64,000 bases of DNA from Devosia submarina. Its GTDB lineage: Bacteria > Pseudomonadota > Alphaproteobacteria > Rhizobiales > Devosiaceae. Positions within the stretch are counted from its first letter, which is position 1, and the number at the start of each line of letters is the position of its first letter. Both the position numbers and the translations under genes were made by a program. The stretch is from positions 248,001-312,000 of the forward strand of contig NZ_PYWB01000005.1 of assembly GCF_003056345.1 (NCBI RefSeq). Reading direction: 5' to 3'. Of this stretch, positions 1 to 60,855 are shown piece by piece. Under the pieces are notes generated by a model, which did no database searches, was not told where the DNA came from, and was given only the letters and a program-made list of their open reading frames with translations.

Positions 1-1747
1 TGAACACGATCACATCGGGGCCAATGCCGGGGAATGTGCCGCCACCGCCAGCGCGGTAATTGTTGGTTGCGACCACAAAGCGGGCAGCCGGATCAATCGG
101 GGCGCCATTGTGCATCAAATCCACGATGCGGTTGGCATCGAGGTTGAGCTCTTCCTTGCCATCGGCCGAATATTTGGACGGTTGGGTCAGGTCGATCTTG
201 TAGGTAACGCCGTCGAGCACGTCGTAATTATAGGACGGGAAGTCGGGGTTGATGAGCTCGGCATCGCTAGCTCCCGGCTCGATCTGGTTGAAGATGCCAG
301 CCGAGCGTTCCAGCCAGTTCTTGACGTCTGCGCCGGTGATGACCACCGCCTGGATGGTGTTGGGATAAAGGTAAAGGTCGGCCACGTTCTTGATGGCGAC
401 GGGGCCCACGGGAACATCGGTGTAATAGTCCGGACCGCCGCGCCCGCCGGCCTTGAACGGGGCTGCCGCCGACAGGATCGGCAGGCTCTCCCATTCGGTG
501 CCTTTCATCATCTGCTCGATATACCAGGTCTGGGCCTGGGACACGATCTGCACGGAGGGATCGTCGGCGACCAAGGCAAAGTAGGAGTAAAGCGGTGCTG
601 CCGTTTCACCGACCGGGCGGCGGATATAGTCGATCGTTTCCTCATGATCGGTCTGGGCCGCGGCGACAACTTCCGCCTCGTCTTCGACCAGGGCATTGAC
701 CTTGCCGTCCACGCGCTCGGAAATCGGGCGCGCCTCGGAGGTGTGCGACACCACCATCCACTTGCCCTCGGCATCCTGTTCGAGCAGCAGGTCGATCAGG
801 CCCATATGCGACCCCCAGAAGCCCGGCATGACGGCAGGCTTGCCGCTCAGAGTTCCCGCTTCGATATCGGCGCCTTCAACGCCCTCGTAGTCGGGGCCGG
901 GGAACACCAGATGCTGGTGGCCGGTGAGCACCACGTCGATGCCTTCAACGGCGGCAAGTTGCAGGGAGGCGTTCTCAGCGCCTGTGGTCTGGTCGGAGGC
1001 GATACCGGAGTGTGACAGCGCGACGATGATATCGGCGCCTTCCTCGCGCATGCGGGGAACATAGGCTTGGGCGGTCTCGACGATGTCGCGGGTGTTGACC
1101 TTGCCGGTGAGGTGGGTTGCGTCCCAAGTCATGATCTGGGGCGGCAGGAAACCGATAATACCCACCTTGATGGTCTTGGTCGCGCCCGAGCCGTCGGTCA
1201 GCTCTTTCTCGACGATCAGGTAAGGCTTGATATAGGTGTCATCGCCCAGCGGGTCGGCGGCCAGTTCGCCGCGCACGAGGTTGGCCGAAACAAACGGGAA
1301 CTCGGCACCCGCAAGGGCCTTGTCGAGATATTCCAGGCCATAGTTGAATTCGTGATTGCCCAAGGTCGCGGCTTCATAGCCGAGCGTGTTCATCGCGGCG
1401 ATGATGGGATGGACATTGTCCTCGAGGCCTTTTTCGTAGGCGATGTAGTCGCCCATCGGATTGCCTTGGATGATGTCGCCATTGTCGAGCAGCATGGAAT
1501 TGCCCGCTTCGGCACGAATGGCTTCGATCAGCGAGGCAGTACGGGCGAGGCCCATCGTGTCGTTGGGCGCGTCGGCATAATAGTCATAGGCGAACACGGC
1601 GACATGCAGGTCCGTGGTCTCGATGATCCGCAGATGCGCCTGGTTGGCTTGTGCCATGGCGGCAAACGGATGCATCGCGGCCATTGCCCCGATGCTGGCG
1701 GAGCCCGCCAGGAAAGTGCGTCGCGACATTTTGGGCAGGAAGTTCAT
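1..1747 (-). CDS. cpdB: Bifunctional 2',3'-cyclic-nucleotide 2'-phosphodiesterase/3'-nucleotidase (3' end cut by window)
   Basis: This is a periplasmic calcineurin-type phosphoesterase of the 5'-nucleotidase/CpdB family, which salvages extracellular nucleotides. The visible 582 codons begin with a twin-arginine signal (RRTFLAG, residues 9-15, then a hydrophobic stretch ending near MAQA), so export of the folded metalloenzyme by Tat is likely. Metal-site motifs are visible: D46-x-H48, DNGD (88-91), GNHEF (130-134), and a later GHQH. The 5'-nucleotidase C-terminal domain follows, reading [17 protein letters not shown] and [12 protein letters not shown], and then the window ends. The stop codon lies outside. 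CpdB is preferred over UshA because of the ETTDLH opening and overall resemblance; the exact substrate is inferred. The upstream side is a 0.9 kb repeat block. Confidence 0.88.
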
Positions 1748-1923
1748 GGATCGTCTCCCGGAATTGCTCGGCTGAACAAAGAAACGCCCGGGGGCCCCGC
1801 GCTCCCGAACAGCCGGATCAATGCATCCGGCGCTTGGCTCTTGCCGCCCGGAGGTGACGTCCAGATGACGGCAGCAGGTGACGGTAGGACGTTTTTGGGG
1901 AAGCGGTCAATTTGGATGATGGG

Positions 1924-2228
1924 CGTGCGCAAGCGCCGCCTCGGGTGCGGTGATGTCCAGCGTGCAAGTGGCGAGGCAATGCCCCGGATAAGTATAAAGT
2001 AGTGAGACAAAGCCCCGCCACTTGCGATGGGATTTTCCGGCGCGCGCGACTCTGGTCCCTGAGCCTCCCAGAGGCATTGGTGACACTTCCGCTTGCCTAC
2101 GAGGATCACGAACATCCCCGCCCCATCTGCCAACCACACTAGCCGGTTCGCGCGACCCGCTGGGTGATGTGGTTGGTGAGGGGAGAATAGCGCACGGTGA
2201 TGGAGGCGGGGATAAGCAGGAGAGATTT
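1924..2228. repeat. Structured dispersed repeat A, copy 1 (possible ncRNA)
   Basis: About 305 bp repeated in the same orientation at 60238-60540. The core at 2026-2131 differs by one base from 60340-60445. A left stem pairs GCAAGTGGCGAGGC (1964-1977) with 2012-2025. A closing stem pairs GATGGG (2026-2031) with CCCATC (2122-2127) and encloses a CTCTGG/CCAGAG hairpin. A right stem pairs CCAACCACA (2130-2138) with TGTGGTTGG (2168-2176) around an invariant segment AGCCGGTTCGCGCGACCC. The left and right stems differ from copy 2 but remain paired. I do not recognise the family. Which strand is transcribed cannot be told; on the minus strand it would lie about 180 nt upstream of cpdB. The 176 bp between cpdB and this element show nothing else I can name. 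Confidence 0.8.
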
Positions 2229-3607: not shown

Positions 3608-4104
3608 TGGCACAGGTCGAGGCGCTCGCCCTTGCAGATGACGGCACTTTCCCCAATAGCCGCTATCCGGCGCTGATCTATCGCGGCGCCACCAAGGGGG
3701 ATGGGCCCGAAGCGCTGGAGCAGCTCTTTGAGCGCAATGGCTGGCCGCCACAATGGCGCGACACGGTGTTCACCTTCCACCATTACCATTCCCAGAGCCA
3801 TGAATGCCTGGGCGTTGCCGTGGGAAACGCCACGCTGCGGCTCGGTGGGCCCGATGGCCAAGAGGTGCGGGTGGAGGCAGGCGATGTCGTGGTGATCCCG
3901 GCGGGCGTTGCGCATCAGCGCGTCCTAGCCAGCACGGATTTCATGGTCGTGGGCGCCTATCCGCCGGGGCAGGAGAATTTCGACACGCTGCGCGGCAATC
4001 CCGATGACCGGCCGAAGGCCGACGAGAACATCGCTGATGTCCCCGTGCCGCAATCAGACCCGGTGGAGGGTTCCTCCGGATCCTTGCTGGATAGGTGGCG
4101 CTAG
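3607..4104 (+). CDS. Cupin-domain protein
   Basis: 165 aa single-domain cupin. The start ATG overlaps the ypfJ stop as TGATG; an upstream in-frame ATG at 3580 lies inside ypfJ and is less likely. The first cupin motif reads FTFHHYHSQSHECLGVAVG, supplying His and Glu metal ligands, and the second reads VEAGDVVVIPAGVAHQRV. The C-terminal tail is acidic and Pro-rich. It resembles YjlB-type cupins of unknown function. Translational coupling to ypfJ suggests coexpression but not a shared pathway. The gene ends 4 bp into the convergent carA reading frame. Confidence 0.85.
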   Translation: MAQVEALALADDGTFPNSRYPALIYRGATKGDGPEALEQLFERNGWPPQWRDTVFTFHHYHSQSHECLGVAVGNATLRLGGPDGQEVRVEAGDVVVIPAGVAHQRVLASTDFMVVGAYPPGQENFDTLRGNPDDRPKADENIADVPVPQSDPVEGSSGSLLDRWR

Positions 4105-5306
4105 GCTGCCGTAGGCTTGTGCTCGGGCAGCTTTTCCATGCCCTTCTGCTCGCGCACATGGTTGAGGAAGCGCGTGAAGAGATAGTGGCTGTCGCGCGGA
4201 CCGGGGCTGGCTTCGGGGTGGTACTGCACCGAAAAGATCGGCTTGCCTTCAACGCTGAGGCCCGCATTGGTCTCATCAAACAGCGAAATATGCGTTTCGG
4301 TGACACCAGCGGGCAGGCTCGCCTTGTCCACGGCAAAGCCATGGTTCATCGAGGTGATTTCAACCTTCCCGGTGGTCAGATCCTTGACCGGATGGTTGGC
4401 GCCATGGTGGCCCTGGTGCATCTTTGAGGTCGTGCCGCCGAGAGCCAGGCCAAGCAGCTGGTGGCCAAGGCAGATGCCGAACACGGGCTTGCCGGTATCC
4501 AGCAGCTTCTGGATGGTGGGAACGGCATATTTGCCGGTCGCTGCCGGATCGCCGGGGCCATTGGACAGGAAAATGCCATCAGGATTGTGCGCCAGCACGT
4601 CCTCGGCCGTGGCCGTTGCGGGCACGACCGTCACCTTTGCGCCCTGGTCGGCAAGGCAGCGCAGGATGTTGCGCTTGGCGCCGTAATCGATCGCCACGAT
4701 ATGGAAAGGCGCGTCCTCGAGCTTGCCATAGCCCTTGTCCCAGGCCCAACCAGTCTGGTCCCAGTGGTAGGTCTGGGCGGTGGTGACTTCCTTGGCGAGG
4801 TCGAGGCCTTCAAGGCCGGGGAAGGCATTGAGCTCGGCCTTGATGGAGGCTTCGTCGAACATGCCGGTCGGCTCATGGGCGATCACACCATTGGGCATGC
4901 CGTTTTCGCGGATCTGCGCGGTCAGGGCACGGGTGTCGATGCCGGTGATGCCGATGATGTTGCGCTTCTTGAGCCAGGCGTCGAGCTTTTCGGCGGCGCG
5001 ATAATTGGATGGGTTGGTGATGTCGGCCTTCAAGACAACACCGCGGACACCCGAGAGTGCGGCCATGTTGACCGTCTCGATGTCCTCGTCATTGGTGCCG
5101 ACATTGCCAATATGGGGGAAGGTAAAGGTGATGATCTGCCCGGCATAGGAGGGGTCGGTCAGCACCTCCTGGTAGCCGGTCATGGCGGTGTTGAAGCACA
5201 CTTCGCCCGCGGCATGGCCTATGGCGCCGATTCCGCGGCCTTCCAGGCGCGTACCGTCTGCAAGCATCAGAATTGCGGTCGCGGGGGATTGCTGCCAGCC
5301 GGTCAC
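4101..5306 (-). CDS. carA: Carbamoyl-phosphate synthase small subunit
   Basis: 401 aa glutamine amidotransferase subunit of carbamoyl-phosphate synthase, which feeds ammonia to CarB for pyrimidine and arginine synthesis. The N-terminal CarA domain reads TAILMLADGTRLEGRG, with VCFNTAMTGYQEVLTDPSYAGQI and TFPHIGNVGTNDED. The class I amidotransferase domain has the nucleophile in FGICLGHQLLG and a C-terminal SVQYHPEASPGPRDSHYLF. I chose a GTG start at 5306 because GGAGG lies 7 nt upstream and the length (about 400 aa) fits the family; an extended reading frame lacks such support. carB is not in the window. The gene is divergent from yqeY and convergent with the cupin gene (4 bp overlap). Confidence 0.96.
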   Translation of the reverse strand: MTGWQQSPATAILMLADGTRLEGRGIGAIGHAAGEVCFNTAMTGYQEVLTDPSYAGQIITFTFPHIGNVGTNDEDIETVNMAALSGVRGVVLKADITNPSNYRAAEKLDAWLKKRNIIGITGIDTRALTAQIRENGMPNGVIAHEPTGMFDEASIKAELNAFPGLEGLDLAKEVTTAQTYHWDQTGWAWDKGYGKLEDAPFHIVAIDYGAKRNILRCLADQGAKVTVVPATATAEDVLAHNPDGIFLSNGPGDPAATGKYAVPTIQKLLDTGKPVFGICLGHQLLGLALGGTTSKMHQGHHGANHPVKDLTTGKVEITSMNHGFAVDKASLPAGVTETHISLFDETNAGLSVEGKPIFSVQYHPEASPGPRDSHYLFTRFLNHVREQKGMEKLPEHKPTAA

Positions 5307-58943: not shown

Positions 58944-60017
58944 CTAGGCGACTTGCTGGTTTGTGGCTGCACGGCGCTGGGTGACGGCTTCGGCCAAGGA
59001 TTCGAGGGCCGTGACGGTGGTGCCCCAGTCGATGCAGCCGTCTGTAATGGACTGGCCGTGAACGAGATCCTGGCCGGGAACGAGGTCCTGGCGGCCGGCA
59101 ACGAGGTTGGATTCAATCATGACGCCGATGATGCGGCGGTCGCCGGCGGCGAGTTGCTGGCCAATGTCGGCGAGGACCAGGGGCTGGTTTTCCGGCTTCT
59201 TGCTCGAATTGGCGTGGCTGGCATCGACCATGATGGCGGGTTGGAGGCCAGCCTTGGTGGCTGCAGCCGCGGCAGCGTCGATGCTCGCGGCGTCGTAATT
59301 GGTGGTTTTGCCGCCGCGCAGGATGATGTGGCAATCCTCGTTGCCGGTGGTCGCGGCAATGGCGGAGCGGCCGTCCTTGGTGACGGCGAGGAAATGGTGG
59401 GGCTGGCTGGCGGACTGGACGGCATCAAGGGCGATCTTGACGTTGCCATCGGTGCCGTTCTTGAAGCCGACGGGGCAGGAGAGGCCGGAGGCGAGTTCGC
59501 GGTGGATCTGCGACTCGGTGGTGCGGGCACCGATGGCAGCCCAGCTGACGAGGTCCGCAATATATTGCGGGGTGGTCATGTCGAGGAATTCGCAGGCGGC
59601 TGGCAGACCCATATTGGCGATGTCGAGCAGCAGGGCCCGGGCTGTGTGCAGGCCCTGATCGATCCGGAAACTGCCATCGAGATTGGGATCATTGATGAGG
59701 CCCTTCCAGCCGACAGTGGTGCGGGGCTTTTCGAAGTAGACGCGCATGATGATCTCGAGCCGGTCGCCCAAGGTCTCACGCAGCGCGACGAGGCGCTTGG
59801 CGTAGTCCAGCGCCGCGGCGGGATCGTGGATGGAGCAGGGGCCAACGATGACGGCGAGGCGGTCGTCATTGCCCCCGAGAATATTGTGGAATGCATGCCG
59901 GGCACCAATGACGGTGCGGGTCGCACGGTCGGTGCGCGGATGCTGGCGCATGATTTCGATGGGGGTGGCGAGTTCCTGGATGGCGCTGATGCGCAGATCG
60001 TCGGTGGATTTCAGCAT
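58944..60017 (-). CDS. aroG: 3-deoxy-7-phosphoheptulonate synthase (class I, AroF/G/H type)
   Basis: 357 aa DAHP synthase, condensing phosphoenolpyruvate and erythrose 4-phosphate at the head of the shikimate pathway. Motifs: VIVGPCSIHDPAAALDYAKRL, MRVYFEKPRTTVGWKGLINDP, IGARTTESQIHRELASGLSCPVGFKNGTDG, RGGKTTNYD and ASHANSSKKPENQ. These are close to the enteric class I-alpha enzyme; most alphaproteobacteria use a different (class II) DAHP synthase, so this may be an extra isozyme or acquisition. GAGGAGC precedes the ATG at 60017. The gene and repeats split the usual uvrC-pgsA order. Confidence 0.95.
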   Translation of the reverse strand: MLKSTDDLRISAIQELATPIEIMRQHPRTDRATRTVIGARHAFHNILGGNDDRLAVIVGPCSIHDPAAALDYAKRLVALRETLGDRLEIIMRVYFEKPRTTVGWKGLINDPNLDGSFRIDQGLHTARALLLDIANMGLPAACEFLDMTTPQYIADLVSWAAIGARTTESQIHRELASGLSCPVGFKNGTDGNVKIALDAVQSASQPHHFLAVTKDGRSAIAATTGNEDCHIILRGGKTTNYDAASIDAAAAAATKAGLQPAIMVDASHANSSKKPENQPLVLADIGQQLAAGDRRIIGVMIESNLVAGRQDLVPGQDLVHGQSITDGCIDWGTTVTALESLAEAVTQRRAATNQQVA

Positions 60018-60237
60018 GGTGGCTCCTCGGGATTTTGGGTGAGGCGGCCACAAAAACCGCCTCGAATGATCGGGCGGTGGGCTGGGGTTTGATGCTTATC
60101 GGGTCAGGATCAGATCAAGCGCGCGCTAGCCTCCGCCGGGAGCGGATAGCTAAAGTACCAAAACGAGATGGTTGCGAGGGAGATCATGGCGAAACTGTAG
60201 CCCGGCGTTTTCGACTTGTCGACTCCCTTGTTTTGGA

Positions 60238-60540
60238 CGTGCCGAAGCGCCGCCCCGGGTGCGGTGATGAACAGCGTTGATGTGGCGAGGCCTTGCCCCG
60301 GTAAGTTTTAGTGTAGTGAGACAAAGCTTCGCCACATCAGATGGGATTTTCCGGCGCGCGCGACTCTGGTCCCTGAGCCTCCCAGAGGCATTGGTGACAC
60401 TTCCGCTTGCCTACGGGGATCACGAACATCCCCGCCCCATCTGCCCCTTCACAAGCCGGTTCGCGCGACCCGCTGGTTCGTGAAGGCAGTGGGGGGAGAT
60501 TAGCGCATGGGGATGGTGGGGGGAGAAGGGGGAGAGATTT
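60238..60540. repeat. Structured dispersed repeat A, copy 2 (possible ncRNA)
   Basis: 303 bp, same orientation as 1924-2228. Core 60340-60445 differs at one base. Left stem pairs GATGTGGCGAGGC (60279-60291) with 60326-60338. Closing stem AGATGGG (60339-60345) pairs with CCCATCT (60436-60442). Inside lies GGGGAT-CACGAAC-ATCCCC, a perfect hairpin. Right stem pairs CCTTCAC (60446-60452) with GTGAAGG (60480-60486). Compared with copy 1, both flanking stems changed sequence but kept complementarity. On the minus strand it would be about 220 bp upstream of aroG. The 220 bp before it hold nothing else I can name. Confidence 0.8.
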
Positions 60541-60570
60541 AGTTTTGTGCGCGGGAGAGGACCCCCACCT

Positions 60571-60594
60571 AGCCTCCCCCTGGGAAGGGGAGGG
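60571..60594. repeat. Short palindrome E, variant copy (reverse of 26069 unit)
   Basis: AGCCTCCCCC-TGGG-AAGGGGAGGG, preceded by ACCCCCACCT. Reverse complement matches the 26069-26104 unit. Confidence 0.6.
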
Positions 60595-60635
60595 ACTGGT
60601 GCGGTTGGTGGGGCGCATGCGGGCAATCAGTAGAT

Positions 60636-60722
60636 CTCATGGTGAGCGTGTCGAACCATGAGGGCGTGGCACCTGAGGCCTCCACTCGCTCGGCCTCGTG
60701 GTTCGTGTAAGCTCACCATGAG
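60636..60722. repeat. Palindromic repeat D, copy 2
   Basis: Inverted ends CTCATGGTGAGC (60636-60647) and GCTCACCATGAG (60711-60722), a perfect 12 bp match. Inside, TCGAACCATGAGG (60651-60663) and CCTCGTGGTTCG (60694-60705) form a second inverted pair. A partial relative lies at 60895-60921, just before the uvrC stop. Confidence 0.7.
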
Positions 60723-60769
60723 GCCTTGGGGAACATCGTGCATGGGGAGGATGGTTCAACAATCCCGAT

Positions 60770-60855
60770 CGTCATCCTCGGGCCTGACCCGAGGAGACTG
60801 TACTTGCGGAGCGTTGGTTAAGTGTAGAACCTTCGGGTCAGGCCCGAGGGTGACG
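60770..60855. repeat. Palindromic repeat B, copy 3
   Basis: 86 bp with inverted ends CGTCATCCTCGGGCCTGACCC and GGGTCAGGCCCGAGGGTGACG, more nearly perfect than the other copies, and the shared centre CTTGCGGAGCG. Confidence 0.75.

Follow-up and report, generated by a model that had tools for sequence, protein, structure and literature searches.

The window, i.e. the 64,000-nucleotide stretch of Devosia submarina DNA analyzed here, contains two copies of an intergenic element, which an earlier note, made from the letters of the sequence, had described as a candidate structured RNA of unrecognized family. Both copies were confirmed at 1924-2228 and 60238-60540, and so was the claim that they share a 106-nt core with one difference: copy 1 (2026-2131) and copy 2 (60340-60445) deviate at 1 of 106 positions. 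The left stems of the two copies, GCAAGTGGCGAGGC and TGATGTGGCGAGGC, as well as the right stems, CCAACCAC and CCCCTTCAC, differ in sequence, and pairing is kept in both cases. Table 1 lists the features of the copies and the genes downstream of them. The phosphodiesterase site of copy 1 is occupied by an RNA copy also in genomes G433 and G032, the synthase site of copy 2 also in G433.

Table 1. Coordinates of the RNA copies, their predicted parts and the genes behind them in the window.
Feature	Position	Strand	Remarks
RNA copy 1	1922..2181	-	predicted ends: 5' near 2181, 3' near 1922
Copy 1, upstream promoter-like motif CTTATCCCC	2208..2216	-	motif scan
Copy 1, -10-like hexamer TATTCT	2184..2189	-	distance to upstream motif 18 nt, to hairpin A 5 nt
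Copy 1, hairpin A	2130..2176	-	variable stem CCAACCAC/GTGGTTGG, conserved apical segment
Copy 1, hairpin P5	2101..2119	-	proposed kissing with the loop of hairpin A (post hoc test)
Copy 1, core closed by P3	2026..2127	-	GATGGG (2026-2031) with CCCATC (2122-2127); holds P4 and P5
Copy 1, long hairpin P2	1964..2025	-	variable 14-bp stem
Copy 1, 3'-terminal hairpin P1	1936..1950	-	CCGC..GCGG, hypervariable loop (by eye)
RNA copy 2	60236..60494	-	predicted ends
Copy 2, upstream motif CTTCTCCCC	60520..60528	-	motif scan
Copy 2, -10-like hexamer TAATCT	60497..60502	-	motif scan
2',3'-cyclic-nucleotide 2'-phosphodiesterase gene, downstream of copy 1	526..1747	-	part scanned; start codon near 1747
3-Deoxy-7-phosphoheptulonate synthase gene, downstream of copy 2	58944..60017	-	

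The designation as a two-copy element was too narrow, as the 3.98 Mb genome of the window contains 21 full copies, and 5 to 15 copies were fetched from each of ten relatives. Among the 21 copies, 9 have a core of type one and 10 a core of type two; one is a mosaic (L010) and one is very divergent (L021). The helices of L021 have a different sequence and, as judged by eye, still pair. The copy L010 (around 1478-1632) combines both core types of the genome and is a probable product of gene conversion. Other intergenic repeats, namely CCTCCCC-rich hairpins of the GTCATCCCGG..CCGGGATCCATCC type, adjoin the RNA element at 2236-2500 and 60560-60800 of the window. They occur in similar order and orientation and on the same side of many RNA copies.

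Fold, strand and promoter-like motif

The comparison of the copies showed a conserved predicted fold of about 260 nt, which runs from hairpin A on the 5' side through a multibranched core built of P3, P4, and P5 and through the long hairpin P2 to hairpin P1 on the 3' side. For a structure alignment, 71 matches (67 distinct rows) were fitted to the structure of the model; 88.3% of the cells pair, and double-sided changes are seen in 34 of the 36 pairs. The 67 distinct rows contain 514 cells with double changes, compared to 151 ± 9 after shuffling and at most 106 in slid controls, a count that leans toward the structure to which the alignment was fitted. For P2, an alignment of 40 copies was generated by MAFFT without structure, which was predicted afterwards; here, 9 of 13 pairs change on both sides. 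The excess of double changes bears out the claim that the left and right stems differ between copies and stay paired. For the closing stem, which had been proposed as well, the results were negative: its own pairing was no better than that of swapped partners, with 1532 of 2000 permutations scoring at least as high. On the minus strand, its arms correspond to the promoter-like -10 region and the 3' end, and they show no covariation.

A wide-window test gave no support for a kissing interaction between hairpin A and P5 (124 of 2000 permutations were as high). A test anchored on the CGA/UCG loop motif did support it (19 of 5000 for helix length, 62 of 5000 for flanking pairs), but was designed after viewing the sequences; of 146 sequences, it omitted 6 in which no P5 hairpin was detected, and of 42 loop combinations, 2 that lack CGA. 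On the minus strand, the P2 loop of many copies contains the complement of the stem once more (GAGGC/GCCTC repeated); two small hairpins could thus form in place of the long one.

The strand on which the element had first been read is probably the wrong one. In an alignment fitted to the plus strand, 129 A.C cells were counted versus 67 G.U cells; since A.C is a wobble pair on the opposite strand, this excess favors the minus strand. For P2, the minus strand gives the more stable hairpin in 106 of 118 copies, and the P2 columns contain 38 G.U versus 5 A.C cells on this strand (tallied by hand, for a structure predicted on minus). The alifold consensus energy of the pooled alignment was -80.9 for minus versus -70.7 for plus, and consensus folding by genome was better on minus for all five genomes tried. 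Against the minus reading, single-sequence folding of the whole element was ambiguous, the plus strand being lower in 34 of 56 cases. Despite these ambiguous single folds, the plus-strand reading was rejected because of the wobble asymmetry, and we conclude, with high but not full confidence, that the RNA is encoded on the minus strand.

A motif scan of the minus strand of 116 copies found CTTATCCCC followed by a -10-like hexamer YANNNT; because the best of many placements was taken, weak copies are flattered. The spacing is 17 in 75 copies, 18 in 25, 16 in 6, and other in 10 (i.e. 16-18 in 106 of 116), which leads to the consensus CTTATCCCC-N17-YANNNT, and most hexamers end 5-6 nt ahead of hairpin A. 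In the source genome, the upstream motif is mostly CTTCTCCCC. Within the window, the exact bipartite pattern has one match, which belongs to copy 1 (2184-2216); one of 100 shuffles has a match. A second YTATCC is often seen by eye 9-10 bp further upstream of the motif. Thus, the scan showed a conserved promoter-like element at a fixed distance before the first predicted hairpin, as for a small RNA gene. A U-tract terminator was not found: 7 of 116 copies have TTTT close to their 3' end, compared to 13 for the control, and the transcript may therefore run into the next gene. From the gene-call step on, a truncated copy (L123) and two R1 matches overlapping called genes (L126, L130) were dropped; the counts based on 116 copies also do without L110 and L132, which are cut by contig ends. 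The truncated copy L123 (G458, around 4001-4188) agrees with L121 from mid-core onward and has unrelated sequence before; the junction may record an insertion, a deletion or a conversion.

Reach of the family and concerted evolution at shared sites

The window copies belong to a family of structured RNA genes that has apparently not been described before and that reaches up to 21 copies per genome. In 60 relatives, blastn found only short weak pieces outside the source genome (best E 0.0056). The search with covariance models, which the earlier note had suggested, was more productive: model R1, consisting of the core and one hairpin, matched 22 of 75 genomes of the genus (E<=1), R2 matched 27 of these 75 (E<=0.01), and R3 found homologues in 44 of 136 family genomes, belonging to 3 of 16 genera (E<=0.01). 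In an order-wide search of 397 genomes, five matched the RNA model, all inside the family. All these counts are lower bounds, as the models are insensitive: R3 missed G026, where the RNA behind X (see below) is plain by eye, and a divergent copy visible by eye upstream of parC in G429 was matched by none of the models. Pattern matches in five genomes of one other genus were discarded; the one that was read lies between two genes and has no such fold by eye. The proposed comparison with Rfam yielded no matching family: at gathering cut-offs the window gives only a tRNA and 10 further loci give none, and with E up to 1 only matches far below their cut-offs were obtained. The titles and abstract openings of the literature searched on Devosia small RNAs and repeats, multi-copy sRNAs, concerted evolution, rhizobial repeats, and cuckoo RNAs contain no description of the family. 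With homologues in many species that preserve pairing through changes and without an Rfam match, the proposal of a structured RNA of unrecognized family is strongly supported. Beyond what the earlier note could see, there are the promoter-like motif, the linked X gene, and a concerted evolution of copies at shared sites.

Gene neighborhoods were taken from simple codon-based gene calls, and 55 sites were grouped by the similarity of the gene behind the copy, which could merge paralogous genes. Several sites recur across species: those of parC and of a molybdopterin oxidoreductase were found in 6 genomes each, that before a reductase, which we take to be RibD-like, in 7, those of ftsH, clpB, and the phosphodiesterase in 3 each, and those of dnaK, dnaE, and aroG in 2 each. 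A random dispersal of copies is ruled out by these shared sites. Of the 121 pairs of copies at the same site, 105 could be compared with paralogues from both genomes; for 82 of these 105, each of the two copies resembles a paralogue more closely than its same-site counterpart. At the site before a presumably lldD-like gene, the copy of G433 has an identity of 0.38-0.40 with its orthologues and of 0.97 with a paralogue. As judged from these identities, the likeness of copies within a genome at shared sites is concerted evolution, which is most simply attributed to gene conversion.

In the source genome, the genes behind the copies comprise parC, dnaK, ftsH, clpB, dnaE, mutL, aroG, rlmN, and dapD as well as those of the cyclic-nucleotide phosphodiesterase and an AMP nucleosidase. 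They have no common pathway, as compared for 20 of the 21 copies, with 17 of the 20 neighbors named. A heat-shock regulon, suggested by dnaK, ftsH, clpB, and a further neighbor gene that we assume to be hslV, was dropped because the other genes are unrelated.

The site upstream of ilvD was read in 8 genomes, with 4 further loci left out. A copy is present in G006 and G447; by eye, the site is empty in the 6 others, including G459, where the flanks did not align by eye. The loci L291-L294, L296, L297, L299, and L300 contain a conserved palindromic, operator-like stretch around GTACCGTACGGTAC before ilvD, which is found in 7 of the 8 genomes; the eighth, G439, has a shorter form of it.

The linked protein X

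In genomes bearing X, a protein of about 155 aa, one RNA copy usually lies directly behind its gene. A profile search (E<=1e-10) found X in 50 of 75 Devosia genomes, with one match each except for two in G034 and G446; in the order, X was found in 8 of 397 genomes, all inside the family. By eye, the RNA lies directly behind X in 30 of the 34 X matches whose downstream side was read; as these are the best-scoring ones among the X-bearing genomes and the profile was built from RNA-adjacent X genes, the linkage rate may be lower elsewhere. In the same 30 loci, the promoter motif is located between 25 nt before and 195 nt after the X stop codon. Three loci can be set aside: in L249 (G000) X is about 0.9 kb from its RNA, in L252 (G013) only 203 nt lead to the contig end and no RNA was seen, and in L256 (G214) X is partial with no RNA seen behind. 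Promoter motif and RNA then follow, by eye, 30 of 31 X genes; in G035 no RNA was seen behind X. A stricter regular expression matched 21 of 32 X loci, versus one match in 135 kb of control sequence. In L255 (G011), a second, incomplete promoter-and-hairpin stretch is located downstream of X, just before the full RNA.

Of the 38 Devosia genomes matched by R3, 8 yielded no X (E<=1e-10). Two of the RNA-bearing genomes without X (G450, G451) are incomplete; G435 (6 matches) and G032 (10) are nearly complete, which indicates that X is not strictly needed for the persistence of the RNA. X had no match in NCBIfam (2 sequences), and its profile had none among PDB sequences. No family was assigned; 17 members gave only stray weak matches, namely one to Pfam CATRA-N (0.0022), one to SpoU_methylas_C (0.037), three to PADLOC PDC-M36B (best 0.014), one to a Cas11 model (0.015), and one to a PHROG (0.055). 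Family searches found neither a transposase nor a nuclease match. Plasmids and phages contained no X match, and plasmids no match for copy 1. The C-terminal end of X is basic.

Interpretation and related systems

From these comparisons, we give slightly better than an even chance to the reading that the element is an autonomous multi-copy gene of a structured noncoding RNA, which works with X, probably in trans. Each copy would be transcribed from its own promoter and all copies would yield the same RNA, such that dosage would matter. X would bind the RNA, as suggested by the linkage and the basic C-terminal end, and the two would form a functional ribonucleoprotein, which would most likely work in trans. 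Gene conversion among the copies would keep them compatible with the shared partner. Tentatively, we also consider a further-reaching proposal possible, according to which this is a new ribonucleoprotein class, whose RNA has so far been seen only in Devosia and two related genera, is kept uniform at up to 21 loci by gene conversion like ribosomal RNA, acts in trans with a novel small protein, and has a kissing loop in its core.

The location of the copies may point to a cis-acting function, in which the element would be the promoter and folded 5' leader of the next gene, perhaps an attenuator read by X, and the copies constitute a regulon. Where the genes on both sides run in the same direction, the RNA follows this direction at 31 of 38 distinct sites (p 1e-4). 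A co-directional gene lies behind 101 of the 117 copies with a called neighbor, and its start is at a median distance of 97 nt (minimum 26 nt, 19 of 101 within 60 nt), which leaves little room for another promoter; the missing U-tract terminator fits as well. However, the other 16 of the 117 copies face a gene's end, the genes behind the copies of the source genome have no common pathway, and near-identical copies within one genome are unusual for riboswitch leaders. We regard a leader as unlikely. It is rather unlikely, too, that the element is a non-coding mobile element of the MITE or SINE kind, either domesticated or active to this day, whose structure and promoter serve its spreading and whose mobilizer may be X. 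Many dispersed copies, one of them beside a gene as in REP/RAYT, and the ilvD site, filled in two genomes and empty by eye in six, would be in agreement with mobility; repeated insertion, however, fits poorly with sites that are common to species and at which spacing and orientation are similar but the sequences group by genome. In addition, X has no transposase match, and the searches of plasmids and phages for X and of plasmids for copy 1 were negative. An element acting at the DNA level, by protein binding or as a cruciform, would match the intergenic location beside promoters and the conserved CTTATCC repeats, but neither the strand asymmetry of the wobble pairs nor the multibranched conserved fold, and is very improbable.

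For the favored reading of a trans-acting RNA with a protein partner, the nearest parallel is the CIN1 locus, and the Devosia system may work like it. The RNA-binding protein CcaF1 is co-transcribed with CcsR sRNAs at this locus of Alphaproteobacteria (PMC10253847), and related multi-copy sRNAs of this class have hypervariable stems (PMC7143759). Cuckoo/CcsR/alpha-r14 with CcaF1 resembles the Devosia system in that a small protein gene is followed by sRNA genes (PMC10253847, PMC7143759, PMC3927594); moreover, Cuckoo/alpha-r14 RNAs also have several copies per genome, hypervariable stems, and conserved loops. The Cuckoo RNAs are short repeated hairpins, whereas the Devosia RNA comprises about 260 nt with a multibranched core and, unlike them, has a promoter-like motif before nearly every copy. 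The Cuckoo partner is an RNA-binding protein, whereas X is a putative one; X has no DUF1127 match (17 X proteins) and is about twice as long as the protein described for the Cuckoo locus. With 1 mismatch allowed, the Cuckoo loop motif CCUCCUCCC is absent from both window copies; a near match lies upstream of copy 2 (60521-60529). As neither this motif nor DUF1127 was found, the Devosia RNA was not classed as a member of Cuckoo/CIN1.

HEARO (omega) RNA is a further case for comparison, of which copies without a protein gene exist. This IscB-type RNA (RF02033) is likewise a folded RNA beside a protein gene (PMC9755519), and it precedes this gene, whereas the Devosia RNA lies behind it. Unlike HEARO, the Devosia RNA has no RF02033 match, and X, with about 155 aa, has no nuclease match. 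REP/BIME elements with RAYT are similarly dispersed, intergenic, folded repeats, some of them beside a gene; REPs are palindromes of 20-40 bp in more than 100 copies, in contrast to about 260 nt and at most 21 copies here, and RAYT is a tyrosine (HUH) transposase, whereas X lacks any transposase family match. As for the Devosia RNA, copies of rRNA and tuf genes are described as more alike within a genome than across species at the same site (PMC6053082). Unlike these genes, the Devosia element is noncoding and was seen only in one family, as far as the models reach. To our knowledge, bacterial multi-copy noncoding RNAs under concerted evolution, beyond ribosomal and transfer RNA, have rarely been described. 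With the copy number, a promoter-like motif, a candidate protein partner, and a predicted fold available, it can be tested directly why one RNA is kept in many copies by a bacterium. Copies also occur in the named strains D. naphthalenivorans CM5-1, D. limi DSM 17137, and D. epidermidihirudinis E84.
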